A stretch of DNA of 64,000 bases from Mesorhizobium sp. YC-39 (GTDB taxonomy: Bacteria > Pseudomonadota > Alphaproteobacteria > Rhizobiales > Rhizobiaceae): the NCBI RefSeq assembly GCF_025753795.1, contig NZ_JAOWPS010000001.1, positions 1,612,001 through 1,676,000 of the forward strand, in the 5' to 3' direction. The notes beneath the pieces are model-generated. The model had not been told where the DNA came from. It searched no databases and saw nothing but the letters and a program-made list of their open reading frames with translations. Every line of letters begins with the position of its first letter. Position 1 is the first letter of the stretch. Shown here piece after piece: positions 1 through 18,698 of the stretch. The position numbers and the translations under genes are program-made.

Positions 1-568
1 CGATTATATCCTCATTACCACCGGTGGCGGCGGTGACGGCGCCGACTTGATCCACGACGTCATCGATGCCTATCAGCAGGATCCGCAATTGCAGCATAGG
101 GCGCTGATCGTGCTTGGGCCTTACATGCCGGCGCGCCAGCGCAACAAGCTGCTCAAGAAGGGATCCAGGATCCCCTATATCAAGATCATCGAGTTCGACA
201 ACCGCATGGAAGATCTGATTGCCGGCGCCAAGGCGGTAGTGGCGATGGGCGGTTACAACACCTATTGCGAGATATTGTCTTTCGACAAGCCGGCGCTGAT
301 CGTGCCGCGCATCATGCCCCGCGAGGAACAACTGATCCGCGCACGGCGTGCAGCCGAACTCGGTCTCATCGAGATGCTTTTGCCGGAGGAAGCCAAGGAT
401 TCCCAGCGGTTTGCCGATGCACTGAAGGTGCTGCCGGACCGGCCCCGCCCATCGCAGAGCAACCCGCATCTGACGCTGGAAGGGCTGCCTCATATTTCCG
501 AAATCGTCGCGGAACTGCTCGACCGGCGGGCCGGCCATCACCTTTCGGTCATTGAAGGCATGAACTGA
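1..568 (+). CDS. Glycosyltransferase, C-terminal part (5' end outside window)
   Basis: The reading frame is open from the first bases, so the N-terminal half lies upstream of the window. The visible part starts with ILITTGGGGDGADL, a Rossmann strand and glycine-rich turn as in the C-terminal domain of MurG-like (GT28/COG4671) glycosyltransferases. MGGYNTYCEIL and the following PALIVPR strand resemble the sugar-nucleotide-binding segment of that fold. It ends 1 base before the TTG start of the next glycosyltransferase, so the two are almost certainly co-transcribed. It probably transfers a sugar to a surface polysaccharide or glycolipid. The acceptor and donor cannot be read from the sequence. 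Confidence 0.8.
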   Translation, partial: DYILITTGGGGDGADLIHDVIDAYQQDPQLQHRALIVLGPYMPARQRNKLLKKGSRIPYIKIIEFDNRMEDLIAGAKAVVAMGGYNTYCEILSFDKPALIVPRIMPREEQLIRARRAAELGLIEMLLPEEAKDSQRFADALKVLPDRPRPSQSNPHLTLEGLPHISEIVAELLDRRAGHHLSVIEGMN

Positions 569-569
569 G

Positions 570-1814
570 TTGCAACATCGCAAGATCGTCGTGGTTCTGA
601 AGGGCTATCCGCGGCTGTCGGAAACCTTCATCGCGCAGGAACTGCTCGGTCTGGAGCGTGCAGGGTTCGACCTGATACTCGTCGCGCTCAGGCGGCCGAC
701 CGACGCAAAACGCCACCCCGTGCATGACGAGATCAAAGCGCCCGTCCATTATCTGCCGGAATATCTGCATGAAGAGCCGCTGCGCGTGGTTCGCTCGCTG
801 TTTGCTTATCTGCTGCGGCCGGGCTTCTGGCGCGCTCTCGGATCGCTGGCGGCCGATATCCCCCGCGACTTTACGCGCAATCGCGCGCGCCGCTTCGGGC
901 AAGCGCTCGTGCTGGCGGCCGAATGGCCGGAAGACGCGGGCTGGCTGCATGCACATTTCGCGCACACGCCGGCGTCGGTGACGCGCTATGCCAGCCAGCT
1001 TCGTGGCCTGCCCTGGAGCTGCTCGGCCCATGCCAAGGACATCTGGACTTCGGCGGACTGGGATCTGGCTGGCAAGCTTGCCTCGGCGCGCTGGACGGTC
1101 ACTTGCACGCAAACCGGTTTCGACCGTCTGAAAAAACTCGCTAACGGCAACTCGTCTGTGCATCTGAGCTATCATGGGCTCGACCTTGATCGCTTCGGCA
1201 GTTTCGGCGAGGCGCGAAAACAGCATGACGGCTCGGCGCCGGACGAACCGGTTATCGTTCTGAGTGTCGGGCGCGCCGTTGAAAAGAAAGGTTACGATAC
1301 CTTGCTGGAGGCCCTTGCCCTCTTGCCCGGTGATTTGGCGTGGCGTTTCGAGCATATCGGCGGCGGCGAGGAACTGGAACGGCTCAAGGCGCTGGCGCAA
1401 AAGCTCGGACTGGATGGTCGCGTCTCTTGGAAAGGCGCGCTTGCCCAGGAGGAGGTGCTTGAGCACTACCGCTGCGCCGACATCTTCGCCCTGGCTTGCA
1501 GGATCACCGCAAATGGCGACCGGGACGGTCTGCCGAATGTTTTGGTGGAGGCGGCTAGCCAGCGGCTTGCCTGCGTGTCGACCGATATTTCCGGCGTGCC
1601 GGAGCTTTTATCGCCGGATGAAACCGGGCTCCTGGTTCCGACGGAAAACCCAATTGCCCTGGCACAGGCGCTGGAGCGCCTGATCCGTGATCCTGTGCTG
1701 CGTGCCCGCCTCGGCGACGCCGCAGAGCGGCGCGTGCGCGGCAATTTCGATCATATGGCAAGCATTGGACAGCTCAAGGAACTGTTCGAGCGGGAGTGGC
1801 GGGCCGCCGAATGA
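570..1814 (+). CDS. GT4-family glycosyltransferase
   Basis: A 414-residue protein with a GT-B organisation. The N-terminal half contains YPRLSETFIAQE, typical of family 4 enzymes that build exopolysaccharide or lipopolysaccharide. The C-terminal half has VLSVGRAVEKKGYDTLLEA and then a DGLPNVLVEA segment, the GT4 E-x7-E-like nucleotide-sugar site. The start is a TTG at 570, immediately after the upstream stop. The stop overlaps the next start by 4 bases (ATGA), so it is the middle gene of a three-gene glycosyltransferase operon. Donor and acceptor sugars are not predictable. Confidence 0.88.
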   Translation: MQHRKIVVVLKGYPRLSETFIAQELLGLERAGFDLILVALRRPTDAKRHPVHDEIKAPVHYLPEYLHEEPLRVVRSLFAYLLRPGFWRALGSLAADIPRDFTRNRARRFGQALVLAAEWPEDAGWLHAHFAHTPASVTRYASQLRGLPWSCSAHAKDIWTSADWDLAGKLASARWTVTCTQTGFDRLKKLANGNSSVHLSYHGLDLDRFGSFGEARKQHDGSAPDEPVIVLSVGRAVEKKGYDTLLEALALLPGDLAWRFEHIGGGEELERLKALAQKLGLDGRVSWKGALAQEEVLEHYRCADIFALACRITANGDRDGLPNVLVEAASQRLACVSTDISGVPELLSPDETGLLVPTENPIALAQALERLIRDPVLRARLGDAAERRVRGNFDHMASIGQLKELFEREWRAAE

Positions 1815-3007
1815 AGCGGCTGCGCGCTTTCTTCTATGTTCAGCACCTGCTCGGTATCGGCCATCTCGCGCGCGCCAGCCGCGTTGCGGCGGCTCTGGTC
1901 GATGACGGGTTTGACGTAACCGTCGTGACCGGCGGAGCGCCGATCGCGGGGTTTCCGGGACTGGGTGTAAAATCTGTAACCCTGCCACCTGTCACCTCCG
2001 GTGATGAAGGATTTTCCGGACTTGTCGACTTGCAGGGCAAACCCATCGACGATGATTTCAAGAAATGGCGTTCAGAGATGCTGCTGCAGGCATTCCGGGA
2101 TTGCAGGCCTGATATCGTCATTGTCGAGGCGTTTCCATTTGGACGCCGGCAGATGCGTTTCGAACTCTTGCCGCTGATCGAGGCCATCGACGCGACGTCG
2201 CCCAGACCGCTGCTGGCGACGTCGGTCCGTGATATCCTTCAGGAGCGAGTCAAGCCGGGCCGAAACAAGGAAACGGTCGATCTCATCAACAGGTATTTCG
2301 ACCTTGTTATGGTCCACGGCGATCCGGCTTTCGCAACCATCGACAAGACATTTCCACTGGCTGGGGCGATCAGGGCCGAGGTCACCTACACAGGGCTCGT
2401 TGCCGCGCCCCCATCGCCCGCGGCCTCCGAGCGCTTCGACGTTCTGGTGTCGGTTGGCGGCGGGGCTGCCGGAAAGAGCCTTGTCAGCTCCACCATCGCA
2501 GCGGTGCGGAATGCCAACAATGGTTGGAAATGGTGCTTGATCACCGGCCCAAACCTGCCGAAAGACGAGTTTGACGCGATCGCACGCGATGCCACGCCGG
2601 GCCTGTCCATCTTCCGGTTCCGCGAGGATTTCGCCAGCCTGCTGACCGGCGCCCGCCTGTCAGTCTCGCAGGCGGGTTACAACACGGTCTGCGATGTCCT
2701 GCGCGCGGGTTGTCGCTCCCTGCTCGTTCCATTTGCAGCCGGCGGGGAAACCGAACAGACGGTTCGCGCCCTGATGCTCGAAGAACTCGGTCTTGCAACG
2801 GTGCTGATGGAAAAGGACCTAACGCCTGAAGGTTTGGCGCAAGCGATCGAACAGGCGCTTGTGGGACCGACGCCATCCGCGCATCGCCTCGATCTGGAAG
2901 GCGCGCGTCGCTCCGCGCAAATCCTGCGCGAGCGGTATCGAACATGGTCCCTAAAAGTGAGGCCCGGTTTCGGAAAGTTTCATGATCAAATAGACGATAG
3001 ATCCTGA
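1811..3007 (+). CDS. MurG-like glycosyltransferase (COG4671 type)
   Basis: About 398 residues from the ATG at 1811. This start overlaps the previous stop by 4 bases and is preferred to an in-frame start 15 bases upstream. The N terminus YVQHLLGIGHLARASR resembles the GxGHxxR entry motif of MurG/GT28 enzymes that bind lipid-linked or membrane acceptors. The C-terminal half has VSVGGGAAGKSL and VSQAGYNTVCDVLRAG, the donor-binding G-loop and a helix also present in the partial gene at the window start. The two look like paralogues flanking a GT4 enzyme. A strong stem-loop followed by T-rich sequence lies just downstream and should end the operon. Confidence 0.86.
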   Translation: MKRLRAFFYVQHLLGIGHLARASRVAAALVDDGFDVTVVTGGAPIAGFPGLGVKSVTLPPVTSGDEGFSGLVDLQGKPIDDDFKKWRSEMLLQAFRDCRPDIVIVEAFPFGRRQMRFELLPLIEAIDATSPRPLLATSVRDILQERVKPGRNKETVDLINRYFDLVMVHGDPAFATIDKTFPLAGAIRAEVTYTGLVAAPPSPAASERFDVLVSVGGGAAGKSLVSSTIAAVRNANNGWKWCLITGPNLPKDEFDAIARDATPGLSIFRFREDFASLLTGARLSVSQAGYNTVCDVLRAGCRSLLVPFAAGGETEQTVRALMLEELGLATVLMEKDLTPEGLAQAIEQALVGPTPSAHRLDLEGARRSAQILRERYRTWSLKVRPGFGKFHDQIDDRS

Positions 3008-3106: not shown

Positions 3107-3814
3107 TTAAACAGTTCCAATCAGCATGAAGCGCGTATAATTTTTTGTCGGCAGTTCGCCGGAGAACCGCACCTCCCGTAGCGCCGCCATTGCTTCGAAG
3201 GCTGCAAGTGAAGCCACGCAGTTGATGTGCGTCGGCTCGCTGAAATAATCGTTCGATTGCAGCAGTACATTCGTGCCACGCGGAAGCAGAGCAAGCCAGG
3301 CGCGCAGATCGGCTATGTGTTCGCAGCTCGTATTGACCATCAGGTCGGGCCGCCCGGCCGCATAGTCGAGTGCGTACATATCTGCCGTCAGCGCCCGGAA
3401 CCGGTCGCCCGCTTCCCGGTTGAGGGTCCGGGCGACCGGCGCGACTTCGGGATCGATGTCGATGCTATCGATCGCCGCGATGTCGAAGCGGGCGTCGTTG
3501 AAAAGCATTGCCGGCAATACGCCGTACCATCCACCCAAAACCCATATGCGACGGAACCGGCCACCGCAGCTTTCGAACAGCCTGTCGAGCGCCCACATCT
3601 TGCAGGCGACCTGCTTGTGGTTGAAGGCGTTGGCGATATCGGCCTTCGGATGCTTGGTGACGACGCGCGCCAGCCCTGCCACGAGAGGGCAGTTGACATA
3701 GGCAGCAATCCCCCGCGTGAGGTCCAAGGCTTGCTCATGCCAGTCCATGCCGGCATTGCGTGGTCGCGTGACATCCATCATATTCGTCTTGTATGTTGGG
3801 ATTTCGGGCGACAC
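3107..3814 (-). CDS. Class I SAM-dependent methyltransferase-like protein
   Basis: A 235-residue protein read from a GTG at 3814, which is preceded by AGGAGG about 12 bases upstream. An in-frame ATG at 3781 is an alternative. IWVLGGWYGVLPAMLF is a variant of the SAM-binding glycine loop, and DSIDIDPEVAPVA supplies the acidic residue that would hold the ribose hydroxyls. VNTSCEHI resembles the post-I motif region. No known subfamily or substrate was recognised. It is convergent with the glycosyltransferase operon and divergent from the next transcription unit, so it is probably its own unit. A role in modifying surface sugars is only a guess from position. Confidence 0.6.
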   Translation of the reverse strand: MSPEIPTYKTNMMDVTRPRNAGMDWHEQALDLTRGIAAYVNCPLVAGLARVVTKHPKADIANAFNHKQVACKMWALDRLFESCGGRFRRIWVLGGWYGVLPAMLFNDARFDIAAIDSIDIDPEVAPVARTLNREAGDRFRALTADMYALDYAAGRPDLMVNTSCEHIADLRAWLALLPRGTNVLLQSNDYFSEPTHINCVASLAAFEAMAALREVRFSGELPTKNYTRFMLIGTV

Positions 3815-4244: not shown

Positions 4245-6959
4245 ATGGAACCCAGCCTAGCCCGCTATATCTGGACGCACACCAAGAAGCAGCAGCTCTG
4301 GATATTGATGATCGTCGTGCTTTCGATGGTCCCGTATTTCATGTCCTTCGACCTGCCGAAGCTGATCGTCAACGGCCCGATCCAGGGTGGCGGCTTCGAG
4401 CAACCGGGCGCGACCCAGCCATTCATGAGGCTACACTATAACCTGCCGTTCATCGGAGAGGTTCAGTTCTTCTCCGGTTTTCAGCTCGACCGCAACGCGA
4501 CGCTGTTTGCCCTGAGCCTTGTGTTCCTCTTGCTAGTCATCATCAACGGGCTGTTCAAACTCTACATCAACACCTACAAGGGCCGCCTCGGCGAGCGCAT
4601 GCTGCGGCGTATCCGTTTCGATCTGGTCGACCGTGTGCTGCGTTTTCCGCCGGTTTACTTCAAGCGGGTGAAATCCGCCGAAGTGGCGACCATGGTAAAG
4701 GACGAGGTGGAGCCGCTGGGCGGCTTCATCGGCGATGCCTTCGTCCAGCCGGTACTACTCGGCGGCCAGGCGCTGACGGCCATGCTGTTCATCATGGTCC
4801 AGAATGTCTGGCTCGGAATGATCGCGGCCGTGATCGTGGGGATCCAGATCGTGCTCATCCCGCGAATGCGGCGGCGGCTGATCGTGCTCGGGCGCGAGCG
4901 GCAGTTGACGGCGCGCGCTCTTTCGGGCCGGGTTGGCGAAATCGTCGATGGCATCGGCGCGGTTCACGTCCACGATACATCAAACTACGAGCGCGCCGAC
5001 ATAGCTGCCCGGCTCGGGCTTATCTTTAAAATCCGCTTCGATCTTTACCAATGGAAATTCATGGTGAAGTTCCTCAACAATTTTCTCGCGCAGCTCACGC
5101 CCTTTCTGTTCTACATGATCGGCGGGTATCTGGTCATCCAGGGGCGGCTGGACGTCGGCCAGCTCGTGGCAGTGATCGGCGCTTACAAGGACCTGCCCGG
5201 ACCGATGAAGGAACTGATCGATTGGGATCAGGCGCGGCAGGATGTCCAGGTCAAATATCAGCAGGTCGTTGAACAGTTTACCGTTGAGGATCTCATTGCG
5301 CCGAGAATCGGGGCATTGACGATCGACGATCCCGCTCCGATGACCAACCCCCTGTCGGCCGTCAGTCTGTCCATGGTAGACGATGGCGGTGCAATGCTCC
5401 TCAACCGTATCTCCCTCCAGATCAAGCCGGGTGAGACGGTGGCGCTGGTCAGCACCACAACAGGTGGAGCGGAGGCGCTTGCAGAAGCCTTCGCGCGGCT
5501 GAACTGGCCGGACAGCGGAAGGGTCGCTTCGGGTGCCGATGACCTGCTTGAACTCCCCGAAGCAGTGACCGGCCGGCGCATGTCCTATGCCTCGTCGGAT
5601 GTTTTCCTGTTCCAGGCAAGCCTCCGCGATAACCTGCTCTACGGGTTGAAGCATGCGCCGCTGACATCGGTGCCTTATGACGGTGCTGCGGCAGACCAGC
5701 GCCGCTGGAACATCCAGGAGGCGCGCCGGTCGGGCAATCCGGAGCTTGATATCCACAGCGACTGGATCAACTATGCTTCCGCCGGCGCTACCGGCCCGCA
5801 CGACCTCTTTGAAGCCGTGCGCCGGGTGCTCGACGCGGTTGTTCTGTCGCGCGACATTCTGGATCTTGGCTTGCGCTCTTCGGCCGACCTCACGCGTCAC
5901 ACGGAGCTTGCCAGGCGGATCGTCGAACTGCGTGCGGCACTGCGAACCCGGCTGGAACACGAAGGGCTGAGCGGACTGGTGGCTCCTTTCGAACCGGGCG
6001 CTTACAACAAGGAAGCAACGATCGGCCAAAACCTGCTCTTCGGCGCTGCCGCCGGCCCCGAACTGGCCGACAGGGCTCTGGCGGCCAATCCCTATTTTGC
6101 TTCTGTGCTGAAGCAAGCCGGCCTCGATCGCACGTTCTACGAAATGGGCATGGAGATCGCCGAACAGGCGATCGAGCTGTTTGCCGACCTGCCGCCCGAT
6201 CACCAGTTCTTCCAGCAGCTCGCCTTCATGAGCGCCGAGGAGATACCCGCCTACGAAAGCCTGCTGCAACGGCTCAAGAACCGTCCCTACGAGGCGGTTT
6301 CGGAGAGCGACCGCGCCATGATCGTCACCTTGAGCTTTGCCTATATCGAGCCCCGGCACCGCTTCGGCCTGCTGAGCGACGAGCTCATGAGCAAGATCGT
6401 CGCTGCACGCAACCGGTTCTATGAAAACCTGCCGCCCGAGCTGCAAAATGCGGTCGAACGGTATGATCCTGCCAAATACATTGCCGCGGCCACCGTCATG
6501 GATAATGTCCTGTTCGGGCGTGTGGGCAACAACCATCCCGACGCGCCGGACCGCATACGCTCCATCGTCTATGACATTCTTGACGAACTGGGGCTTTATG
6601 CCGAACTTCTGGATGTCGGCCTGGACTTCAACGTTGGCTCAGGCGGCAGGCGGCTGACCGGCGGACAGCGACAGAAGCTCGATGTTGCCCGGGCCCTGCT
6701 CAAGCGTCCCGATTTTCTCATTCTCAACCGGCCGCTGTCGGCACTCGACCAGCGCATGCAGGATAAGGTGCTGCGAAACGTGCTCGAGGAAGCCAGACGC
6801 GACGGCCATTCACCAGCAATTGTGTGGGTCGTGACGAATCCGGCAATGGCGATGATGTTCGATCGCGTTATCGTCTTCGACTCGGGTCAATTGGTGGAAG
6901 ACGGAACACACGAGACACTTTTGGCAGGAAGCGGTATCTTTAAGGAACTGCTATCATAG
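4245..6959 (+). CDS. ABC exporter-like protein with degenerate, expanded nucleotide-binding domain
   Basis: About 904 residues from the ATG at 4245; a GTG 48 bases upstream lacks a ribosome site. Residues 1 to about 350 form an ABC type-1 transmembrane domain with roughly six helices, a large loop after helix 1, and the coupling region RLGERMLRRIRFDLVDR. The nucleotide-binding domain starts near residue 380. Its Walker A is GETVALVSTTTGGAEAL (residues 396 on) and lacks the GKS/T. The Walker B region reads DFLILNRPLSALD (823-835), with N-R in place of D-E. The LTGGQRQ signature (near 804) is intact. About 300 residues are inserted between the Q-loop (LFQ near 456) and the signature, containing two further copies of the post-Q-loop motif. 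It may be a catalytically inactive half-transporter or a regulatory protein. Confidence 0.85.
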   Translation: MEPSLARYIWTHTKKQQLWILMIVVLSMVPYFMSFDLPKLIVNGPIQGGGFEQPGATQPFMRLHYNLPFIGEVQFFSGFQLDRNATLFALSLVFLLLVIINGLFKLYINTYKGRLGERMLRRIRFDLVDRVLRFPPVYFKRVKSAEVATMVKDEVEPLGGFIGDAFVQPVLLGGQALTAMLFIMVQNVWLGMIAAVIVGIQIVLIPRMRRRLIVLGRERQLTARALSGRVGEIVDGIGAVHVHDTSNYERADIAARLGLIFKIRFDLYQWKFMVKFLNNFLAQLTPFLFYMIGGYLVIQGRLDVGQLVAVIGAYKDLPGPMKELIDWDQARQDVQVKYQQVVEQFTVEDLIAPRIGALTIDDPAPMTNPLSAVSLSMVDDGGAMLLNRISLQIKPGETVALVSTTTGGAEALAEAFARLNWPDSGRVASGADDLLELPEAVTGRRMSYASSDVFLFQASLRDNLLYGLKHAPLTSVPYDGAAADQRRWNIQEARRSGNPELDIHSDWINYASAGATGPHDLFEAVRRVLDAVVLSRDILDLGLRSSADLTRHTELARRIVELRAALRTRLEHEGLSGLVAPFEPGAYNKEATIGQNLLFGAAAGPELADRALAANPYFASVLKQAGLDRTFYEMGMEIAEQAIELFADLPPDHQFFQQLAFMSAEEIPAYESLLQRLKNRPYEAVSESDRAMIVTLSFAYIEPRHRFGLLSDELMSKIVAARNRFYENLPPELQNAVERYDPAKYIAAATVMDNVLFGRVGNNHPDAPDRIRSIVYDILDELGLYAELLDVGLDFNVGSGGRRLTGGQRQKLDVARALLKRPDFLILNRPLSALDQRMQDKVLRNVLEEARRDGHSPAIVWVVTNPAMAMMFDRVIVFDSGQLVEDGTHETLLAGSGIFKELLS

Positions 6960-7151
6960 AGCATTGGACATTCAGATGGGATCATCCTGCCGGTGGGAAC
7001 TTGTTGCAAGGTCAAGGGATTGAGGTTTCCGGCTGATCGGGCTCGCCACCTTTCGCGTGGTTCGTCTCGCCATCCGGAAACAGAATTGATTCCATCGGGG
7101 TGTCGGTTGTTCTAGTCTCGCAGACGTGAAATTTTGGGAAGGTTTGCGACA

Positions 7152-7601
7152 ATGCTGCTCAAGGATGAGGTTGGAATGCTGCAACGCGTTCCCTTGTTCT
7201 CTGGCATAGAGCCGACAAAGCTCAAGCTGCTTGCGTTCACATCCGATCGCGTGAGCTACGGCGCCGGCCAGATCCTTTTCCGGCAGGGCGACGAGGGAGA
7301 CGCCGCCTACGTCATCCTTTCAGGCAGGGCGGATATTCTGGTCGATTCCGACAGCGGACCGATAAAAGTTGCCGAACTGATGCCAAATTCGATTGTTGGC
7401 GAGATCGCCATATTGTGCAACAGCTCCCGCACGGCCACCGTCAGAGCCGCATCTCCGCTGGAAGCCTTGAGAATCCGCAAGGATCATTTCCTGAGGCTTA
7501 TGAAGGAGTTCCCTGAAATGACCATCGAGATATTGCGGGTTCTTGCCGATCGCCTAAACCATACGACCGCGGATCTGATCGACGCACGAAGCGCCAAATA
7601 A
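7152..7601 (+). CDS. Cyclic-nucleotide-binding domain protein
   Basis: A 149-residue stand-alone CNBD. GGAAGG at 7137-7142 places the start at the ATG 7152 rather than the upstream TTG 7134. FRQGDEGDAAYVILSGRADIL matches the beta-roll of the CRP/PKA regulatory fold. VGEIAILCNSSRTATVRA is the phosphate-binding cassette, with the conserved Glu and Arg that bind the cyclic phosphate and ribose. The C-terminal helices (LRIRKDHFLRLM, ILRVLADRL) are the usual hinge, but there is no DNA-binding domain, so it should act by protein contact. It lies 190 bases after the ABC gene and before the MBL hydrolase. Several cyclase-fold genes follow, which would supply a ligand. Confidence 0.88.
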   Translation: MLLKDEVGMLQRVPLFSGIEPTKLKLLAFTSDRVSYGAGQILFRQGDEGDAAYVILSGRADILVDSDSGPIKVAELMPNSIVGEIAILCNSSRTATVRAASPLEALRIRKDHFLRLMKEFPEMTIEILRVLADRLNHTTADLIDARSAK

Positions 7602-7736
7602 CGAATGACTTTCGCTCGATCCTCGCCGTCGTGATGGCACTGGCCTCTTACTGACAAGATCACCTGGAGAAAAACCTGTCTCGCCTAGCAGCGGTTGTTT
7701 GGCTACGATGGGCGACAGGGACTGCGAAGGGGTAGC

Positions 7737-8591
7737 ATGGACGACGACGTTTTCCTGGTCAGGTTTTGGGGCGTGCGCGGCAGCATTCCGGTATCGGGGC
7801 CAGAATTCTCTCGCTATGGCGGCAACACAATCTGCGTTGAGATGCGATGCGGCAAGCATACGCTTCTGTTCGACGCGGGCTCTGGCCTACGGTCCGCCGG
7901 CCGGGCGTTTCGGGCGTCGGGCGTGACCGATTTCGACCTGCTTTTCACCCATTGCCATTACGATCACATCATCGGGCTGCCGTTTTTTGTGCCGATCTAT
8001 GACCGGAGCGTCAAGGTTACGCTTTGGTCCGGGCATCTTGCAGGACGCATGACGACCCGGCAGATGGTCGACGAGTTCATGCGGCCGCCGTGGTTTCCGG
8101 TGAAACTGGATATCTGCAAGGCAAGCCTCGACTGCCGCGATTTCGTATCCGGAGACGTGCTTCGGCCGCGCGAAGGGGTGGTGGTCCGAACCGGCAGTCT
8201 TGTCCATCCGGGCGGCTGCATAGGCTACCGGGTGGAATGGGGCGGCCGTGTCGTGGCAATGATCACAGACACTGAGCACGAGTCGGACAAACTCGATCAG
8301 GCGGTGCTCGGCCTGATCGAAGATGCCGACCTCGTCATTTACGACTGCGCCTACACCGAGGAGGAAATGGAACGCCACCGCGGTGACGGGCACTCGACAT
8401 GGCAACAGGGCGTCAAGCTCTGTGAGGCGGCCGGTGCGCGGGGGCTTGCGGTGTTTCATCACACTCCGACACGCACCGACGAGGAACTGGACGAGATCGA
8501 GAAACTGGCCAAGGACAGGTTTGCCGGCGCATTTGTCGCGAGGGATGGCCAGACGCTTAAATTTCCAGTCTCATTGCACAAAGAGCACTGA
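7737..8591 (+). CDS. MBL-fold metallohydrolase
   Basis: 284 residues from the ATG at 7737 (GAAGGGG upstream). The N-terminal FWGVRGSIPVSGPEF followed by YGGNT is typical of an MBL subfamily related to PhnP and RNase Z-like phosphodiesterases. FTHCHYDHIIGLPFF around residues 70-82 gives the metal-binding HxHxDH. Further ligands are likely the Asp in ITDTEH and the His pair in AVFHHTP near the C terminus. The likely chemistry is hydrolysis of a phosphodiester or cyclic phosphate. Its location beside a CNBD protein and near cyclases makes a cyclic-nucleotide phosphodiesterase role plausible but unproven. Confidence 0.85.
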   Translation: MDDDVFLVRFWGVRGSIPVSGPEFSRYGGNTICVEMRCGKHTLLFDAGSGLRSAGRAFRASGVTDFDLLFTHCHYDHIIGLPFFVPIYDRSVKVTLWSGHLAGRMTTRQMVDEFMRPPWFPVKLDICKASLDCRDFVSGDVLRPREGVVVRTGSLVHPGGCIGYRVEWGGRVVAMITDTEHESDKLDQAVLGLIEDADLVIYDCAYTEEEMERHRGDGHSTWQQGVKLCEAAGARGLAVFHHTPTRTDEELDEIEKLAKDRFAGAFVARDGQTLKFPVSLHKEH

Positions 8592-8592
8592 G

Positions 8593-9357
8593 CTATTTTC
8601 CCCTACCGGCGTAGCGCCCGATCAATGTCCTGATCGGAAGCCATGCGCAGGCTTTGGTCTGTGCGGTGACTGTGAACAGCCGTTCGAGGAAAAGCCAGGC
8701 CGATTCATCATGTACGAGATGGTGGGTGAGCAGGCCGACCGGTTCGCCGCTGTCGACTGAATGCTGCAATTGCGCGATGATGGCCTGAACCAACAGGCCA
8801 TGATCGCGGCAGCCGCGCGTGCCATGCCAATCCATGATGTCGACATTGCTGTTGATGACCGCCAGTGAAGCCGGCTTCAGCGGCCCAAAGACCGACAATG
8901 CCGCAAATCCTATCGATCCAAGGTCGGATACCAAGCCGGCGTCGATCCTGTTCCAGGGTGGCACCAGCATCGGAACGGTACGTGCGCCGTGCAGGCCGGT
9001 TACGTGCGACAGTCCGCGAGCCAGATCATCGAGCACCGCCTCGCGTGGCCGATGCGCGCCGAGCTCCTGCTTTTTCTGGTCCTCGGGCGCATGATTTCGG
9101 TGCGCCCAGCCATGGATGGCGACCGTGGCATGCGGCGCCTCGTCAAGCCGGACGACAAGCTTCTCATCAGTCAGGGCCGGAATGACGGCCAGAGTGACCG
9201 GAACCGCGAACTCACCGGTGAGGTCGAGCAGCCGATCAAGCGCAGGCGTTGGATCCACGGCGTCATCGTCGCGCAGCCAGAACTCTGCCTTACGGTCCGC
9301 CCGTTGCCGGCACGCCAGTTCTTCCACCAAGGGCTGCCATATCTGATCGGATGTCAT
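8593..9357 (-). CDS. Polysaccharide deacetylase-like protein
   Basis: 254 residues. EFWLRDDDAVDPTPALDRLLDL near residues 26-46 supplies the Asp cluster of carbohydrate esterase family 4-like proteins. TVAIHGWAHRNHAPE gives the paired histidines for metal binding, and VPPWNRI is the usual downstream strand with the arginine. GLLTHHLVHDE fits the C-terminal catalytic His region. It would deacetylate N-acetylated sugars in a polysaccharide. No signal peptide is seen, so it may act in the cytoplasm. Its ATG overlaps the stop of the upstream glycosyltransferase by 4 bases, so the pair is translationally coupled. Confidence 0.8.
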   Translation of the reverse strand: MTSDQIWQPLVEELACRQRADRKAEFWLRDDDAVDPTPALDRLLDLTGEFAVPVTLAVIPALTDEKLVVRLDEAPHATVAIHGWAHRNHAPEDQKKQELGAHRPREAVLDDLARGLSHVTGLHGARTVPMLVPPWNRIDAGLVSDLGSIGFAALSVFGPLKPASLAVINSNVDIMDWHGTRGCRDHGLLVQAIIAQLQHSVDSGEPVGLLTHHLVHDESAWLFLERLFTVTAQTKACAWLPIRTLIGRYAGRGK

Positions 9358-10442
9358 GAAACCGCGATCTTCGCAAAAAGTTCGGTCAGACGCGCCGCTG
9401 CACCACCGAGGGAACGTTCTTCGAGGATGAAACGTCTGGCTTCTGCGGCCATGATGGTTCTTTCGTCGTTACGGGCCAGAAGCCTTTCAATGGCAGAAGC
9501 GAGCGCCGCCACATCGCCCGGCGGGGTGAGAAACCCGGTCTGGCCATCCCGCACGACCTCCGGCACGCCGGCGATGTCCTGAGCCACCACCGGAAGGCCG
9601 GCGGCCTGTGCTTCAAGATAGGCAACGCCATAGGCCTCGCCGTAACCCGGCCAGACGTAAATTCCCCCACTGTAGAGGACATCCGGCACGGCGGCCGGCT
9701 CAATCGCGCCAAGCCATTCGATACGGTCGGCGGGCAAGTCGGCGAATTGCGCTTTGACCTCGTCACGGGCAGGCCCGTCCCCGACGACCGACATGGTCCA
9801 GGGCAGGTGGTCGATCGAGCCGAGCGCTTGCGCCAGCATGCGATAGCTTTCGACTTTGTCGCCCGGGCGCATCATGGCGACTGTAACGAGGCGCGTCGGA
9901 CAACCCCGTGCCGGTGTTTCCCAGAATACCGATGTGTCGATGAAGGGCAAAAGCATAGCGAGAGCGGCGTCGGGAATCGCGTCTGTCAGTCCCTGACGAT
10001 CCCTTTGCGTGAAGCAGATGTTCAGCGCTGCCTGTTCGATGGCTCGCGCCACCAACGCTTGCGTATCGGCCCACAAGCCGGCGTTGCGCCGCCTCGAATA
10101 GGAGGCTTCCGCTGTCACATAGGGGACAGCAAAGGCCGACGCTAACTCGGGTCCGATCAGGTCTGGCGCCTTGTAATAGGGATGATAGGAGAACCAAAGA
10201 TCGGGCTTGCCGTCGCGATCCCAAAGCTTTTTCAGCCGCGCGGCTTCCTCTCGGGCCTCGATCTTGAGCGTATCGAAACTTTTCAACTCCGGTTGGCGTA
10301 GATAGAAGCGCAATTCGGATGCTAGTTCGATGCTATGCCCTCCATGCTCCAGCGCCTTGACCAGCATCCGTGCCATCTGACGGTCGCCGGAGACAACGGG
10401 ATGATTGGGCGACTTCAGCGGCGCGTAGAAGGCAATTCGCAT
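9354..10442 (-). CDS. GT4-family glycosyltransferase
   Basis: 362 residues starting MRIAFYAPLKSP, a GT4 N-terminal strand. The donor-domain strand LVTVAMMRPGDKVESYRML is followed by MSVVGDGPARDEV and a GYGEAYGVAYLEAQAAGLP segment, the E-x7-E nucleotide-sugar site. VVRDGQTGFL and the terminal helix are standard. It is first in a two-gene minus-strand operon with the deacetylase-like gene and divergent from the DUF3095 gene, with 74 bases between. The GT plus deacetylase pairing suggests assembly and partial deacetylation of a HexNAc-containing surface glycan. Confidence 0.87.
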   Translation of the reverse strand: MRIAFYAPLKSPNHPVVSGDRQMARMLVKALEHGGHSIELASELRFYLRQPELKSFDTLKIEAREEAARLKKLWDRDGKPDLWFSYHPYYKAPDLIGPELASAFAVPYVTAEASYSRRRNAGLWADTQALVARAIEQAALNICFTQRDRQGLTDAIPDAALAMLLPFIDTSVFWETPARGCPTRLVTVAMMRPGDKVESYRMLAQALGSIDHLPWTMSVVGDGPARDEVKAQFADLPADRIEWLGAIEPAAVPDVLYSGGIYVWPGYGEAYGVAYLEAQAAGLPVVAQDIAGVPEVVRDGQTGFLTPPGDVAALASAIERLLARNDERTIMAAEARRFILEERSLGGAAARLTELFAKIAVS

Positions 10443-10516: not shown

Positions 10517-11695
10517 ATGTGCTATCTGATGCTCATGGAAACAGCTGCCGCGTCCGACCCGTTTGTCGCTTCCTTGCCGGTCTTCGCAAAGTTCGAAAGC
10601 GTTGCCGATATCGATAACTATCGGCCTCTCCCCGATGGCTGGGCGCTGGCCACCGCCGACATCGTCGGCTCGACCAAGGCGGTCGAGGCTGGGCGCTACA
10701 AAACCGTCAATATGGCCGGCGCCAGCGTCATTTCGGCGCTGCTCAATGCGCTGGGTCGGCAAGATCTTCCCTTTGTCTTCGGCGGCGACGGCGCGCTCGT
10801 GGCGTTTCCCGGCTCGGCGCTGGAGATCACCCGCAGCGCGCTGGCGGCTGTCCAGAGATGGGTGGCGGACGAACTGGACCTGACCTTGCGTGCCGCAATC
10901 GTGCCGATAAAGGATATAAGAGCGCAAGGCCTCGACGTTCGCGTGGCGAGGTTCCAGGCCTCCGAAGCGGTCTTCTATGCCATGTTCGCCGGCGGTGGCG
11001 GCAGTTGGGCGGAAGCCGAGATGAAAGCGGGGCGCTACCGCATCGATCCTGCGCCGGCCGGCACGCGGCCGGATCTGACCGGCCTCTCCTGCCGCTGGAA
11101 CCCGATCGAAGCCCGGCATGGCGAAATCGTCTCGATCATAGCCATACCGGGGGCGTCACGCGACTTGCGCGGTTTTCAGTTTCTGGCTTCCGACATCATC
11201 GCCCTTGCCGGCAGGCATGAACGCGATGGCCACCCGGTGCCGGTGAACGGGCCGGGCTACAGTTTTCTGCCCGCCGGCCTCGATATCGAGGCGCGGGCCA
11301 TGGCACCGGCAGGATGGCGATGGCTGTCGAAGCTGTGGATAGTGTTCCTGATGACGCTTACGGCTGTTACCGATAGATATGGCTGGACGATCGGCCGTTT
11401 CGATCCGAAGATCTACAAACGCGACGTGGCCAGCAATTCGGATTTCCGGAAGTTCGACGACGGCTTGAAGATGACCATCGACGTTGACACGGATGTGTTG
11501 CAACGGATCGAGAACCGGCTGAAACAGGCGGAAGAGGCGGGCATCTGCAACTATGGCCTGCACCGCCAGAAATCGGCCTTGATGACATGCCTCGTCGCCT
11601 CGCCGCTGCAGCGCGATCACGTTCATTTCATCGATGGCGCCGCCGGCGGCTATGCGATGGCTGCCGCAAGACTGAAGGCGAAGACCCCGGTCTGA
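10517..11695 (+). CDS. DUF3095 protein, class III cyclase-like
   Basis: 392 residues. In-frame ATGs at 10517, 10529 and 10535 are all possible starts. GWALATADIVGSTKAVEAG and FVFGGDGALVAFPG resemble the two metal-Asp motifs of class III nucleotidyl cyclases, and VNMAGASVISAL lies between them. This layout defines the DUF3095 family, whose activity is not established as far as I know. The C-terminal half (KRDVASNSDFRKFDD, then MTCLV and HVHFIDGAAGGYAMAA) is specific to the family. It is followed after a few bases by the nucleotide-sugar dehydrogenase, so the two may form an operon. Confidence 0.8.
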   Translation: MCYLMLMETAAASDPFVASLPVFAKFESVADIDNYRPLPDGWALATADIVGSTKAVEAGRYKTVNMAGASVISALLNALGRQDLPFVFGGDGALVAFPGSALEITRSALAAVQRWVADELDLTLRAAIVPIKDIRAQGLDVRVARFQASEAVFYAMFAGGGGSWAEAEMKAGRYRIDPAPAGTRPDLTGLSCRWNPIEARHGEIVSIIAIPGASRDLRGFQFLASDIIALAGRHERDGHPVPVNGPGYSFLPAGLDIEARAMAPAGWRWLSKLWIVFLMTLTAVTDRYGWTIGRFDPKIYKRDVASNSDFRKFDDGLKMTIDVDTDVLQRIENRLKQAEEAGICNYGLHRQKSALMTCLVASPLQRDHVHFIDGAAGGYAMAAARLKAKTPV

Positions 11696-11810
11696 GGACG
11701 GCTTGCGGAAATCCATCTTCCGCAATATGCCTCGGCCATGGTTCTTGGGACCAGGTGAGCCTCGCCATGGAAGCGAACAGCCTGTCCGAATTGACGGGAA
11801 AGCAGATTTT

Positions 11811-13154
11811 TTGGACGCCTCACGATCGACATATGACCGTCTTCTGAACCGAATTTCGACGCGTGTCGCACAAGTCGGCGTGATCGGACTGGGCTATGTC
11901 GGGTTGCCGCTGGCAGTTGCGATCGCTCGCGCCGGCTTCCCGGTTTTCGGCTTCGACATCGAAGCCCAGAAGGTCGAGAGCCTGAACAACGGCCAATCCT
12001 ACATCGAGGCGGTGACGTCGACAGCCCTTGCCGGCCAGGTGGCGAGCGGACGGTTCCGCGCCACTGCGGATTTTGCCGAACTGGCCGTCTGCGATGTCAT
12101 CATCATCTGCGTTCCGACACCGCTGACGAAACACCGTGAGCCGGACCTCTCCTTTGTCAGGAGCACGGCAGGCACGATCGCGAAGCATCTGCGTCTCGGC
12201 CATCTGATCGTGCTGGAATCGACCACCTATCCTGGCACCACCGACGACGTGATCAAGCCCATACTGGAAGAAACCGGCTTGCAGTCGAAGATAGACTTCT
12301 TCCTCGGCTTCTCGCCCGAACGTGAGGATCCCGGCAACCGCAACTTTGAAGTCGCGACGATCCCCAAGGTCGTGGCAGGCGACGGCGCTGAAGCGGCGAC
12401 GCTCGTGCAGGCTTTCTACCAGGGCGTGGTCAAGACCGTCGTTCCGGTTTCCAGCACGGCGACCGCCGAGGCGGTCAAGCTGACGGAAAACATCTTCCGC
12501 TCGGTCAACATAGCCCTCGTCAACGAGTTGAAGGTCGTGCTCGGTGCGATGGGCATCGACATCTGGGAGGTGATCGAGGCGGCAAAGAGCAAGCCCTTCG
12601 GCTACATGCCTTTCTATCCTGGCCCCGGACTTGGCGGGCATTGCGTTCCGATCGATCCCTTCTACCTGACGTGGAAGGCGCGCGAATACGAACTTCCGAC
12701 CCGCTTTATCGAGCTGGCAGCAGAGATCAACACGGCCATGCCGCGTCATGTGGTCGATGAACTGGCGAAGGCGCTGGACCGGCGCTGCGGCAAGGCGCTC
12801 AGCCGCTCGCGCATTCTCATCATCGGGCTCGCCTATAAAAAGAATGTGCCCGACATCCGCGAAAGCCCCTCATTGCGGCTCATTGAACTCATTGAGGAAT
12901 GGGGCGGCAAGGCGGAATTCCACGATCCGCATGTTTCCGAGATCCCCACCACACGGGAGCATATGGCGATCAAGGGGCGCCGCTCGGTCGAATTGACCGA
13001 GGCGGCCTTGAAGGATTTCGATGCTGTCGTCGTTGCAACCGACCACGACGCGATCGACTATCAGGCGATCGCTGATCACGCTCTTCTAATCGTCGACACA
13101 CGCAATGTTTTTGGCCGCCTCGGGCTAGCCCGAGAGACGGTGGTGAAGGCCTGA
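11811..13154 (+). CDS. UDP-N-acetylglucosamine 6-dehydrogenase-type nucleotide sugar dehydrogenase
   Basis: About 447 residues from the TTG at 11811. The frame is open to a TTG at 11703 with GAGGA upstream, but those extra 36 residues do not look like the family. The N terminus QVGVIGLGYVGLPLA is the Rossmann NAD loop. VLESTTYPGTTDDV, GFSPEREDPGN, KLTENIFRSVNIALVNE and GPGLGGHCVPIDPFY are hallmark UDP-sugar dehydrogenase segments. The last resembles the catalytic region, with the active Cys in GGHC. The C-terminal UDP-binding domain has GLAYKKNVPDIRESPS, as in WbpA/WecC. It oxidises C6 of a UDP-sugar to the uronic acid. The exact sugar is uncertain. Confidence 0.88.
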   Translation: MDASRSTYDRLLNRISTRVAQVGVIGLGYVGLPLAVAIARAGFPVFGFDIEAQKVESLNNGQSYIEAVTSTALAGQVASGRFRATADFAELAVCDVIIICVPTPLTKHREPDLSFVRSTAGTIAKHLRLGHLIVLESTTYPGTTDDVIKPILEETGLQSKIDFFLGFSPEREDPGNRNFEVATIPKVVAGDGAEAATLVQAFYQGVVKTVVPVSSTATAEAVKLTENIFRSVNIALVNELKVVLGAMGIDIWEVIEAAKSKPFGYMPFYPGPGLGGHCVPIDPFYLTWKAREYELPTRFIELAAEINTAMPRHVVDELAKALDRRCGKALSRSRILIIGLAYKKNVPDIRESPSLRLIELIEEWGGKAEFHDPHVSEIPTTREHMAIKGRRSVELTEAALKDFDAVVVATDHDAIDYQAIADHALLIVDTRNVFGRLGLARETVVKA

Positions 13155-13420: not shown

Positions 13421-14761
13421 ATGAGCACAGCACAAGCAGAAATTTCCACCATTCTCATGGATAAGGTTGCCGATTGGCTGAACCAATCGGCGCTGGCGGG
13501 CAACGACCTGGAAACATTGGTAAAAGGCTTTTGTGAACGGCTGGCTGCCGCCGGCCTGCCGCTGAAGCGGGTGCATTTGAGCTTTTCGATGCTTCATCCG
13601 CTCTATGACGCGCTTGGCTTCACCTGGATTCGCGGCCAGGGCATAGAAGTGGAAGGCTTCCGCAAAAAGGACGGCGTGCATTCTGACAGATTCCTGACCA
13701 GCCCATACTACCATCTGCTCAGCAACAAGCTCGACCATCTGCGGCGCCGGTTCGACTCGTCGGTGCCGTCGGAATTTCCTATTTTCGATGAACTCAGGCT
13801 TATGGGCGTCACCGATTACATGGCTTTCGTCCATCCCTTCAGCGGCAACACCAGTCAGGGCATGATAGGGTCCTGGTCCACCGACAGTGCTTCAGGCTTC
13901 AGCGACAGCATGATTTCGGGGCTGCTGCGCATCCAGAACCATCTCGCTATCGCAACCAAGATGGCGGTGCTTACCAAGCTCGCCGACAACATGATGACCA
14001 CCTATCTCGGCGGCGACGCCGGCAGGCGCGTGCTGGACGGCCAGATCAAGCGCGGCGAGGGCGACACAATCCGGGCCGCACTGGTCATGGGCGATATGCG
14101 CGGGTCGACGAGGCTGGCCGAAACCTCCGGCCGCGAAATCTATATCGATACGCTGAACCAGTTTTTCGATGCCATTGCTGCACCTTTCAATCGCGGAGGC
14201 GGGCAGATCATGAGTTTCCTGGGGGATGGCTTCATTGCCGTCTACCCCTGCGAAAGGCACCGCGCGCAGTCCGAGATCGCCTGCCAGACTGCTCTTGCGG
14301 CAGCGCACAAGGCCAGCGCTCGCATGATGGAGCTCAATCTGCGCAGAAAGGAGCAGGGGTTGAGCGACATAAAATTCGGTATCGGCCTGCATGTCGGCAA
14401 TGTGATGTTCGGCAATGTCGGGCTTACCGACCGGCTCACATTCTCTGTCTTCGGCTCGGCTGTAAACGAGGTCCAGCGCCTCCAGACCCTGACCAAGAAA
14501 TATCCGCACAGCGTTCTCGCCAGCAAAGACTTCGCCGGCTATTGCGGCGCCAACAGCTGGCAGACGCTGGGCAATGAGGAACTGGCGGGCATCAAGCAGA
14601 AGCTGACGGTGCTTTCGCCCGATCTGTCGGGTGCTCTCGCACTCGATGACGACGGTGCGCTGGAGCCGATTCACGACCGAAGATCGGACGCCGAGCAGGT
14701 CATTCTGCTTCATCGCGATGCCGCGCGGGTGTCGGCGGGCGACCCGAGGAAGCTCCAGTAA
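13421..14761 (+). CDS. Adenylate/guanylate cyclase-domain protein
   Basis: 446 residues. Residues 1 to about 200 form an uncharacterised sensor-like region with no clear membrane helix (FTWIRGQGIEVEGF, MIGSWSTDSASGFS). The C-terminal half is a class III cyclase domain. VMGDMRGSTRLAE carries the first metal Asp and SFLGDGFIAVYP the second, GIGLHVGNVMFGNVG follows, and VFGSAVNEVQRLQ has the transition-state Asn and Arg. The Lys usually found before GD is Ser here, and the Asp before G-x-x-VN is also Ser, so base choice is uncertain. It has its own upstream region of about 260 bases and is followed by the peptide ABC operon. Confidence 0.87.
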   Translation: MSTAQAEISTILMDKVADWLNQSALAGNDLETLVKGFCERLAAAGLPLKRVHLSFSMLHPLYDALGFTWIRGQGIEVEGFRKKDGVHSDRFLTSPYYHLLSNKLDHLRRRFDSSVPSEFPIFDELRLMGVTDYMAFVHPFSGNTSQGMIGSWSTDSASGFSDSMISGLLRIQNHLAIATKMAVLTKLADNMMTTYLGGDAGRRVLDGQIKRGEGDTIRAALVMGDMRGSTRLAETSGREIYIDTLNQFFDAIAAPFNRGGGQIMSFLGDGFIAVYPCERHRAQSEIACQTALAAAHKASARMMELNLRRKEQGLSDIKFGIGLHVGNVMFGNVGLTDRLTFSVFGSAVNEVQRLQTLTKKYPHSVLASKDFAGYCGANSWQTLGNEELAGIKQKLTVLSPDLSGALALDDDGALEPIHDRRSDAEQVILLHRDAARVSAGDPRKLQ

Positions 14762-14899: not shown

Positions 14900-16801
14900 A
14901 TGAGAATGAATTCGGGTGTTGATCTGCTGCGGATCGAAGATGTTGGCATCTCTTTTGCCATTATTGGGGGACCATTGCATGCCGTCAGGCGCGCAAATCT
15001 TCGCGTCCTGCCCGGCAAGGTTACCGCGCTTGTGGGCGAGTCAGGTTCCGGAAAATCGGTTCTCAGCCAGGCAGTGATGGGCATTTTGCCGAACACAGCC
15101 CATGCTCGCGGCCGCATCCTGTTTTCCGACCCTGAAAAGCCCGGCACGACGCAGGATATCCTGCAGATGCCGCGTGACGGACCCGAGATCCGGGCGTTGA
15201 GAGGCAGCCGTATCGGCAAGATCTTTCAGGAGCCGATGACATCGCTGTCGCCGCTGCACACGATCGGCAACCAGGTCAGCGAATCCCTGCAGATTCATAC
15301 GCCCATGGCTCGGGCGGAGCGCAAGGCGCGGACCGAGGAAATGCTCAGCCTTGTCGGCTTTCCCAATCCCAAGCGCGCCTATGACATGTATCCCTTTGAA
15401 CTTTCGGGAGGATTGCGTCAACGCGCCATGATCGCCATGGCGCTTATCTGCCGGCCCGCTTTGTTGATCGCCGATGAGCCGACGACGGCGTTGGACGTCA
15501 CCATCCAGGCGCAAATCCTGCAATTGCTGCGCGAGCTTCAGACCAAGCTGAACATGGCGATGCTGCTGATCACGCACGACCTCGGCGTGGTCGCCAATGT
15601 CGCCGACGAGGTGGTGGTCATGTACCATGGCGAGATCATGGAAGCGGGACCTGTGGAGGCGATATTCCGCCGGCCAGGCCACCCTTACCTGAAGGGCCTG
15701 ATGGCAGCAGTTCCGCATTTCGACCTGAAGCCTGGCGAAAGGCTAAAGGCGCTCCGCGAGGTGCCGGTGAATGTCGGGAACCTGCTCGGCAAGCAGACGG
15801 CGCCGGCATCGAAGGGGCCGGACGACATCCTGCTGTCGGTCAGGGATCTGACAAAGACCTTCACCATCCGCAAGTCCGGATGGTTCGGCGGAGATCATCA
15901 AACCTCTGTTCGCGCCGTGGACGGCGTGAGCTTCGATATCAGGCGGGGTGAGTGCCTGGGTCTTGTCGGCGAAAGCGGCTCCGGCAAGACCACCGTCAGC
16001 AAGATCCTCATGCGGGCTGTCACCCCTAGCGGCGGCTCTGTGATCTTCAACGGCCGCGATAGACCGATCGACGTCTTGGAGGCCGAGGGAGACGCCCTGC
16101 GCATGCTGCGCGCGAAAATCCAGATGGTCTTCCAGGATCCGGTTTCGTCGCTTTCACCTCGCATGACGGTGGAGAACATCTTGAGCGAACCGCTGGAAAT
16201 CCATCAACGTGGCAATACCGCGTCCCGACTCGCCACGGTCAAGAGCCTGATGCAGGCAATCGGGCTCGATCCGCGCTTCATCAAGCGTTATCCGCACAGT
16301 TTCTCCGGCGGGCAGCGTCAGCGTATCGGCATCGCGCGCGCGTTGGCGCTGGGGCCTGAACTCCTGATCTGCGACGAGCCGGTTTCGGCGCTCGATGTCT
16401 CTGTTCAGGCGCAGATCCTGAACCTTCTGAAGGACCTGCAGAAGGAACTGGGCCTGACCTACCTGTTCATATCCCACAACCTGGCGGTGGTGGACTATAT
16501 GGCAGACCGCATCGCTGTGATGTGCGGCGGGCGTATCGTCGAGCTTGCGCCGCGCGAAATTCTGCTGAGGAAACCGGTCCACCCCTACACACGCTCATTG
16601 GTCGCCGCAGTACCTTTCCCCGATCTCGACAGGCCGATGGATTTCAAAACGCTGAAGCTCAGCGGCGCTTCCGATACCAGCGCATGGGGACCGCAATTCC
16701 GTGACGAGGGCGAAGAGGATATGCTGTCGCCGCTCGATCTTGGCGGTGGCCACCTCGTGCTGGCCCGACGTTCGGCCGATGTCAGCGAGCTACGCCATTG
16801 A
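14900..16801 (+). CDS. Peptide ABC transporter, fused double ATPase (YejF-like)
   Basis: 633 residues with two complete ABC domains. Each has a Walker A (GESGSGKSV in the first, GESGSGKTT in the second), a signature (LSGGLRQRA, where the usual second-half Gln is replaced in position, and FSGGQRQRI) and a Walker B ([24 protein letters not shown]). HPYLKGL and HPYTRSL follow each domain, as in oligopeptide-type ATPases. It energises uptake through the two permeases encoded downstream. The ATG at 14900 follows GGGG. The stop overlaps the next start by 4 bases, so this is the first gene of a four-gene operon. Confidence 0.92.
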
Positions 16802-18696: not shown

Positions 18697-18698
18697 GC

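Follow-up and report, generated by a model that had tools for sequence, protein, structure and literature searches.

An ABC exporter homologue with degenerate ATPase motifs and its cyclic-nucleotide-binding partner in Alphaproteobacteria

SUR is an ATP-binding cassette (ABC) protein that acts as a regulator, and cyclic-nucleotide-gated channels couple a C-terminal cyclic-nucleotide-binding domain (CNBD) to a membrane domain. Among ABC exporters, heterodimers with a degenerate site are established: according to the part of one review covered here, the Walker A Lys of this site is replaced by Arg in ABCG5/G8, the degenerate sites reviewed are described as still holding ATP, and CFTR is an ABC protein turned channel (PMC7756269). 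Here we describe an ABC exporter homologue of 904 amino acids, hereafter pseudo-ABC, and the CNBD protein encoded after it, in a 64,000-nucleotide stretch of Mesorhizobium sp. YC-39 (contig NZ_JAOWPS010000001.1, positions 1,612,001 to 1,676,000). We call this whole stretch the window, and all positions below refer to it.

Pseudo-ABC shares with MsbA and other type IV exporters the family of its transmembrane domain (TMD), the fold of its nucleotide-binding domain (NBD) and the domain order of a half-transporter. Unlike them, it lacks the Walker A Lys and Ser, the Walker B DE, the Q-loop Gln and the H-loop His, carries an insert of about 275 residues that contains helical-subdomain repeats, and has a CNBD partner. 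Drifted catalytic motifs are also found in degenerate-site exporters and in CFTR, where the output is channel gating; however, as far as the same part of the review goes, these proteins keep one consensus site and ATP control, whereas pseudo-ABC has no evident Walker A function and has a cyclic-nucleotide domain attached. Some relatives of pseudo-ABC combine a C-terminal CNBD with a membrane domain in the manner of cyclic-nucleotide-gated channels, but their membrane domain is that of an ABC exporter, and any channel activity of theirs is putative.

The gene cluster of the window is the syntenic orthologue of the phazolicin-protecting polysaccharide (PPP) region SMb21252-SMb21271 of Sinorhizobium meliloti, whose published account (PMC10128002) makes no mention of the pseudo-ABC/CNBD pair in the part covered. 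S. meliloti also has MsbA2 (SMb21191), an ABC protein that is likewise MsbA-like and encoded in a pSymB operon for surface polysaccharide. We rejected an identity of the two by locus: the MsbA2 operon (SMb21188-21191), with its ChvI-bound fragment, lies at 938 kb, whereas the region orthologous to that of pseudo-ABC lies at 838-845 kb and has other neighbours. In the open-licence literature, judged mostly from listings, we recognised no paper describing the pseudo-ABC family.

A half-transporter with lost ATPase motifs and a repeated segment

The open reading frame (ORF) of pseudo-ABC is uninterrupted from its ATG at 4245, and its coordinates and its half-transporter architecture are those given in a preliminary description of this DNA. 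Its features are as follows:

4245..6959, +, pseudo-ABC half-transporter, 904 amino acids; orthologue of S. meliloti SMb21267 (tag inferred from gene order)
4482..5279, +, TMD, residues 80-345, the most conserved part of the family (Pfam ABC_membrane, 63.6 bits)
5442..5492, +, degenerate Walker A ALVSTTTGGAEALAEAF, residues 400-416 (column states in the alignment)
5580..5969, +, repeat copy 1 of the Q-loop/helical subdomain, residues 446-575, with DNLLYG at 462-467 (profile comparison)
5970..6449, +, repeat copy 2, residues 576-735, with QNLLFG at 595-600 (profile comparison and structural sub-model)
6450..6644, +, repeat copy 3, in the canonical position, residues 736-800, with DNVLFG at 753-758 (profile comparison)
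6654..6668, +, signature LTGGQ, residues 804-808
6717..6734, +, degenerate Walker B LILNRP, residues 825-830

The preliminary description had called for a profile search and a structure prediction. In Pfam, ABC_membrane scores well over its cut-off of 28 bits and ABC_tran matches in two stretches; the best NCBIfam match is TIGR02203 (MsbA), at 178 bits far under its cut-off of 602. The AlphaFold2 (AF2) model of the full protein has a mean pLDDT of 71.7, most of the NBD being good and parts of the TMD poor. When residues 363-904 of the model are superposed on the NBD of ComA (3vx4), the insert loops out and 240 residues align (rmsd 2.1, Z 27.7). As far as profiles and predicted fold go, these matches establish pseudo-ABC as a homologue of type IV (MsbA-like) ABC exporters in half-transporter order. 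A sequencing error or frameshift, which might have produced the altered motifs, is ruled out by conservation: an uninterrupted full-length copy, 92-97% identical, occurs in 14 of 24 other genomes of the same genus (15/25 with that of the window), so that no frameshift need be invoked. No full-length copy was found in the other 10 of the 24 genomes searched. Among matches from named organisms, the most similar ones belong to Mesorhizobium.

GK[ST] is absent from the whole protein, so that the Walker A pattern GxxGxGK[ST] is lost as had been claimed, and no intact copy of it lies elsewhere in the sequence. Walker B reads NR for the catalytic DE, again as had been noticed, and beyond the losses listed earlier both the Q-loop Gln and the H-loop His are missing. 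The signature is present, with T for the S of LSGGQ. We read the states of these columns across the family from an alignment with ten canonical exporters of the same genus or order, each scored canonical residue being present in 10/10 of the latter. The family was represented by 272 ORFs of more than 800 amino acids, reduced to 249 by collapsing identical last 800 residues and to 150 representatives at 80% identity. A full Walker A (K plus S/T) is found in 5/150 representatives and a Walker B DE also in 5/150; the Q-loop Gln is kept in 18, the H-loop His in 23 and the signature S and G in 13, so the intact signature noted in the window protein is not a general feature of its relatives. Arg occupies the position of the Walker A Lys in 54/150. 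None of the representatives has all five catalytic motifs, and 100/150 have none of the five. The canonical set is thus not restored in any homologue scored, and the ATPase domain appears, from its motifs, as dead as first suspected. Single catalytic residues switch state 14-20 times on the tree of the 150 representatives, which form one clade (see below); the loss therefore looks old, ragged and repeated.

The Q-loop/helical-subdomain segment normally couples ATP binding to the membrane domain. In pseudo-ABC the three motifs that follow the Q-loop stand at the residues first reported, and the extra block between Q-loop and signature, first put at about 300 residues, is real and measures about 275; among the members listed, the block from Q-loop region to signature is of near-uniform length (235-347 amino acids). 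Profile-profile comparison supports the proposed internal duplication: copies 2 and 3 match with P 98.3% (E 1.2e-14), copies 1 and 3 with P 96.1% (E 3.7e-9) and copies 1 and 2 with P 93.1% (E 3.2e-7), against a maximum P of 8.9% in column shuffles (thirty for each of four comparisons). Copy 3 was also scanned along this family profile in 27 windows: the 10 with P of at least 64.8% all overlap the region of copies 1 and 2, whereas none of the remaining 17 exceeds P 1.9%. The tails of copies 1 and 2 match one another (P 96.7%); as equivalents of the signature helix they were rejected (P 0.5% and 2.0% against the true signature region).

In a separate AF2 model of residues 466-802 (pLDDT 76.7), the copy-2 part, residues about 583-728, aligns with the Q-loop-to-signature stretch of ABC exporters in VIA-align, the position of this stretch in P-glycoprotein being our own judgement. 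The top eight rows (71-75 residues, rmsd 2.6-3.1) have Z 5.0-5.4, weak by the tool's own note, and 34 of the first 35 rows carry ABC-protein titles. A Foldseek search of the PDB with this sub-model gave no match at E 0.001 or better. The profile comparisons demonstrate conserved repeats of a predicted Q-loop/helical subdomain in the insert, more than chance would produce.

To follow the family we collected 284 loci. Matches occur in 92/297 genomes of the order at E 1e-100 or better and in 129/385 genomes of the class at E 1e-60 or better, the latter including a few partial matches at the ends of contigs. Within the phylum, to which the search was confined, a profile of residues 466-802 matched 31/398 genomes, each carrying the label genus, family, order or class and none a more distant one, the share of the 398 that lies outside the class not being shown. 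The 150 representatives form one clade apart from the ten canonical exporters (FastTree support 100): judged by this tree and these searches, the family is monophyletic and alphaproteobacterial.

Selection on pseudo-ABC is purifying: in close comparisons from 46 of the 48 loci L057-L104, the median dN/dS is 0.174 for the whole protein (46 comparisons), 0.128 for the TMD, 0.298 for the N-part of the NBD, 0.222 for the insert and 0.108 for the C-part of the NBD; within Mesorhizobium this last part is thus well preserved. In the family as a whole, the TMD is better conserved than the NBD (mean pairwise identity 0.51 vs 0.36, NBD parts 0.35-0.37). In canonical exporters it is the opposite (0.55 vs 0.70), as measured on 37 pairs only. 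The NBD is the more similar of the two domains in 5% of 11,026 family pairs vs 65% of the 37 canonical pairs, both sets being restricted to pairs with TMD identity >0.15 and enough filled columns.

Two relatives consist of the TMD and have no NBD: L282:6540-7781 (-), of 413 amino acids, and L283:5531-6730 (+), of 399. Their best matches to family TMDs are at 47% and 43%, and neither matched the canonical exporter set at E 1e-3. Multicopper-oxidase and CopB genes adjoin both. That such proteins exist suggests that the membrane domain can function with no NBD at all. Used as a query, one of them hit 120/367 class genomes, mostly via full-length family members, and returned a few other short frames, such as those in G638:C44 (360 amino acids) and G398:C9 (361). 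Furthermore, frames of 368 and 372 amino acids (G002:C222:76721-77476 and G011:C1:937328-938083) match the TMD only, at 23-24%, and sit about 17-25 kb from the pseudo-ABC of the same genome.

The CNBD partner and nearby signalling genes

As reported earlier, pseudo-ABC is followed by a CNBD gene and a metallo-beta-lactamase (MBL)-fold gene; class III cyclases, which had not been listed, lie in the same cluster. SMb tags called deduced here and below come from the gene counting explained in the next section.

7134..7601, +, CNBD-only protein, 155 amino acids, phosphate-binding cassette GEIAILCNSSRTATV (Pfam cNMP_binding, 80.6 bits); orthologue of SMb21268, tag deduced
7695..8591, +, MBL-fold hydrolase (Pfam Lactamase_B_2, 65.4 bits); orthologue of SMb21254, tag deduced
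10517..11695, +, DUF3095 protein; its similarity to class III cyclases is suggestive only
13421..14761, +, class III nucleotidyl cyclase (Pfam Guanylate_cyc, 33.2 bits); orthologue of SMb21257, tag deduced

At 155 amino acids, the CNBD protein lacks the DNA-binding domain of a CRP/FNR regulator: no helix-turn-helix was found, cNMP_binding being the only Pfam match up to E 10. We surveyed the flanks in two sets of loci, 97 divergent ones (L185-L284 without the TMD-only L282 and L283 and without L222, which is missing from the counts and seems to repeat the protein of L184) and 79 of 80 named ones, mostly from Mesorhizobium and Rhizobium. A CNBD homologue is in the flank or fused in 91/97 divergent loci, and in the flank in 79/79 named loci. 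By strict placement, the CNBD is adjacent, downstream and on the same strand in 64/97 and C-terminally fused in 22/97, thus in at least 86/97; the tie to the CNBD noted earlier holds in most loci across the class. Five 'far' CNBDs were scored as neither, three of which start 124-198 bases inside the neighbouring ORF, probably an artefact of ORF starts. Pfam confirmed the fused CNBD in 4/4 proteins tested. In an unbiased clustering of neighbours, the CNBD is the top cluster (96/129 loci, all on the same strand, median 32 bases downstream). The phosphate-binding cassette has its Gly in 237/237 CNBDs, its Glu in 224/237 and its Arg in 233/237; Glu and Arg occur together in the CNBD of the window and in 129/141 non-redundant CNBDs. 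The ligand motif is thus shown to be intact, as far as residues tell.

Of the 19 class III cyclase domains of this genome, three lie within about 23 kb of the start of pseudo-ABC. A cyclase homologue is in the flank of 27/97 divergent loci. Over the 87 loci whose genomes (80) had a cyclase count, with detection by two cyclases from these loci and an expectation from Pfam counts, we found a cyclase in the flank of 26/87 vs 2.93 expected from cyclase density, an excess of about ninefold for which the Poisson figure is only indicative, since loci of related genomes are treated as independent. The nearby cyclases have several architectures (Fer2-, CHASE2- or zinc-ribbon/AAA/TPR-linked, and plain) and several placements. 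Another class III cyclase, whose N terminus carries a DUF5939 domain, lies at 21600-23015 (-).

Other neighbours are less general. The MBL hydrolase is real in the window, but a homologue is found in just 19/97 divergent loci vs 71/79 named loci, and DUF3095 in 0/97 vs 61/79. The DUF3095 protein carries DIVGST and GGDG stretches resembling class III cyclases; as a cyclase it was not accepted (hhalign against two cyclase profiles, P 12.8% and 0.5%). Its counterpart in S. meliloti RCAM1750 appears split over two frames.

The polysaccharide cluster and its counterpart in S. meliloti

The window genes have syntenic counterparts in a pSymB-type region annotated in S. meliloti RCAM1750 (SMb21252-SMb21268), a correspondence absent from the preliminary description. 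Identities to RCAM1750 are 65% for pseudo-ABC, 69% for the CNBD protein, 63% for the cyclase, 59% for the MBL protein and 74% for a nucleotide-sugar dehydrogenase. SMb tags were inferred by counting genes between the anchors SMb21247-21249 (PMC5498481, seen in part), SMb21252, SMb21265 and SMb21257; the last is listed as 'hypothetical adenylate cyclase, truncated protein' in the portion of PMC12542648 covered. Since the anchors agree, pseudo-ABC would be SMb21267 and the CNBD protein SMb21268. The remaining genes of the cluster are:

47..568, +, 3' part of a glycosyltransferase-like ORF; orthologue of SMb21263 (deduced), 72% identity over 188 residues
570..1814, +, glycosyltransferase; orthologue of SMb21264 (deduced)
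1796..3007, +, GT28-like glycosyltransferase; orthologue of SMb21265 by gene order
3107..3814, -, methyltransferase-like protein (Pfam Methyltransf_25, below cut-off); orthologue of SMb21266 (deduced)
8593..9357, -, polysaccharide-deacetylase-like protein (below Pfam cut-off); orthologue of SMb21253 (deduced)
9354..10442, -, GT4 glycosyltransferase; orthologue of SMb21252 by gene order
11703..13154, +, nucleotide-sugar dehydrogenase; orthologue of SMb21256 (deduced), 74% identity to the annotated S. meliloti gene

Beside the cyclase, a peptide-importer-type ABC operon (14900-20875) is syntenic with and 69-84% identical to its S. meliloti counterpart.

In the part of their study covered here, Travin et al. 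(2023) report, in the interval from smb21252 to smb21271, nine genes that confer phazolicin sensitivity when disrupted, with SMb21252 and SMb21265 mutants being phazolicin-sensitive; they propose an unknown surface polysaccharide as the protection, and the adenylate cyclase gene cyaA was depleted too (PMC10128002). Seven of the nine were induced under predation, according to the portion covered of another study (PMC10315480). Glycosyltransferase or deacetylase homologues are in the flank of 56/97 divergent and 73/79 named loci.

Possible function and alternative explanations

We may hypothesize that pseudo-ABC is an ATP-independent, cyclic-nucleotide-responsive membrane regulator or gate for the surrounding surface polysaccharide, a reading with about an even chance of being right. 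It is the simplest one to cover a dead ATPase, a preserved membrane domain, an intact CNBD and nearby cyclases. An exporter homologue would have given up ATP as its input while its membrane domain was kept under strong constraint, and its enlarged pseudo-NBD contains three copies of the Q-loop/helical-subdomain segment. The input would most likely be a cyclic nucleotide, presumably cAMP or cGMP, supplied by the cyclases of the cluster and bound by the CNBD partner, which most lineages encode separately and others carry as a C-terminal domain. Binding would alter the pseudo-NBD, which the CNBD presumably contacts, and through it the membrane domain. The latter, as a gate, a path for lipid-linked sugars or a docking surface, would control the polysaccharide made by the surrounding glycosyltransferases, its output presumably being gating. 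The MBL hydrolase may end the signal by degrading the nucleotide. That an ABC exporter fold has switched its input from ATP to cyclic nucleotide, giving a cNMP-gated ABC-derived membrane protein with a pseudo-NBD rebuilt by segment triplication and a membrane domain able to stand alone, like that of the TMD-only relatives in copper clusters, is a broader proposal, which we offer tentatively and regard as doubtful. The 'sensor or scaffold' role first suggested for pseudo-ABC fits, but we favour the membrane domain as the working part because it is the most conserved region and TMD-only relatives exist.

Several observations weigh against this regulator or gate. The Walker A Lys is kept by 47/150 representatives (the full Walker A by the five mentioned above) and the Walker B Glu by 43/150, so some members may bind ATP; L258, for instance, retains Walker A, DE and His and could still do so. 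Proximity of a CNBD is no proof of contact, and six of the 97 divergent loci (L220, L221, L223, L224, L259 and L265) have no CNBD homologue in the fetched flank, the first four forming an early-branching group. The cyclase excess, besides its treatment of related loci, leaves 61/87 loci without a cyclase in the flank. As glycosyltransferase or deacetylase genes are near 56/97 divergent loci only, the polysaccharide link may not hold for all members; moreover, SMb21267 and SMb21268 may lie outside the nine genes found by Tn-seq in the phazolicin study. Finally, confidence in the TMD of the AF2 model is low.

Other explanations share some of this evidence. Pseudo-ABC could be a static scaffold, a membrane anchor for the glycosyltransferases and the CNBD protein that neither gates nor transports anything. 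The polysaccharide genes of both sets of loci fit such a role and the repeats enlarging the pseudo-NBD could be docking surfaces, but 41/97 divergent loci have none of these genes in the fetched flank and conservation is highest in the membrane domain, not in the enlarged NBD; we hold a scaffold to be unlikely. It is rather improbable that pseudo-ABC is a transporter still, paired as in the established degenerate-site exporters with a canonical ABC half elsewhere that hydrolyses ATP. Other exporter halves are plentiful in these genomes, and the Arg of ABCG5/G8 (PMC7756269, in the part covered) recurs in the 54 family members counted above. However, the losses exceed the Lys, extending to Ser/Thr, Walker B and the Q- and H-loops, whereas the degenerate sites in that part of the review are described as still holding ATP; among neighbour clusters that recur in at least 8 of 129 loci, the sole ABC genes belong to a peptide importer, and in the S. 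meliloti cluster no exporter half besides pseudo-ABC is annotated.

The fusion of a CNBD to the C terminus in 22/97 loci, with its Pfam confirmation, makes it quite improbable that the CNBD, cyclases and pseudo-ABC are merely co-regulated neighbours and that the CNBD regulates something else, even though the genes are separate in most lineages and those for MBL, DUF3095 and cyclases are not universal. A decaying pseudogene might be suspected from the lost catalytic residues and from the 10/25 same-genus genomes with no full-length copy, but open full-length frames across the class, the overall dN/dS and the near-uniform insert length speak so strongly against decay of the whole family that we consider it virtually excluded.

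Where annotations are present on plasmid records, they read 'ABC transporter ATP-binding protein' and, for the CNBD protein of S. meliloti, 'Crp/Fnr family transcriptional regulator'; both names are probably misleading. The pseudo-ABC/CNBD family spans soil and symbiotic bacteria and suggests a transporter turned into a signal-controlled membrane device. If a regulator or gate is the right reading, a widespread alphaproteobacterial family would control a protective surface polysaccharide by direct, non-transcriptional cyclic-nucleotide signalling, in which some of the numerous class III cyclases in these bacteria (19 domains in this genome) could have a part. Pseudo-ABC would, in addition, exemplify an ABC protein that functions although its ATPase domain is dead, and S. 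meliloti, a model symbiont, allows this to be tested.

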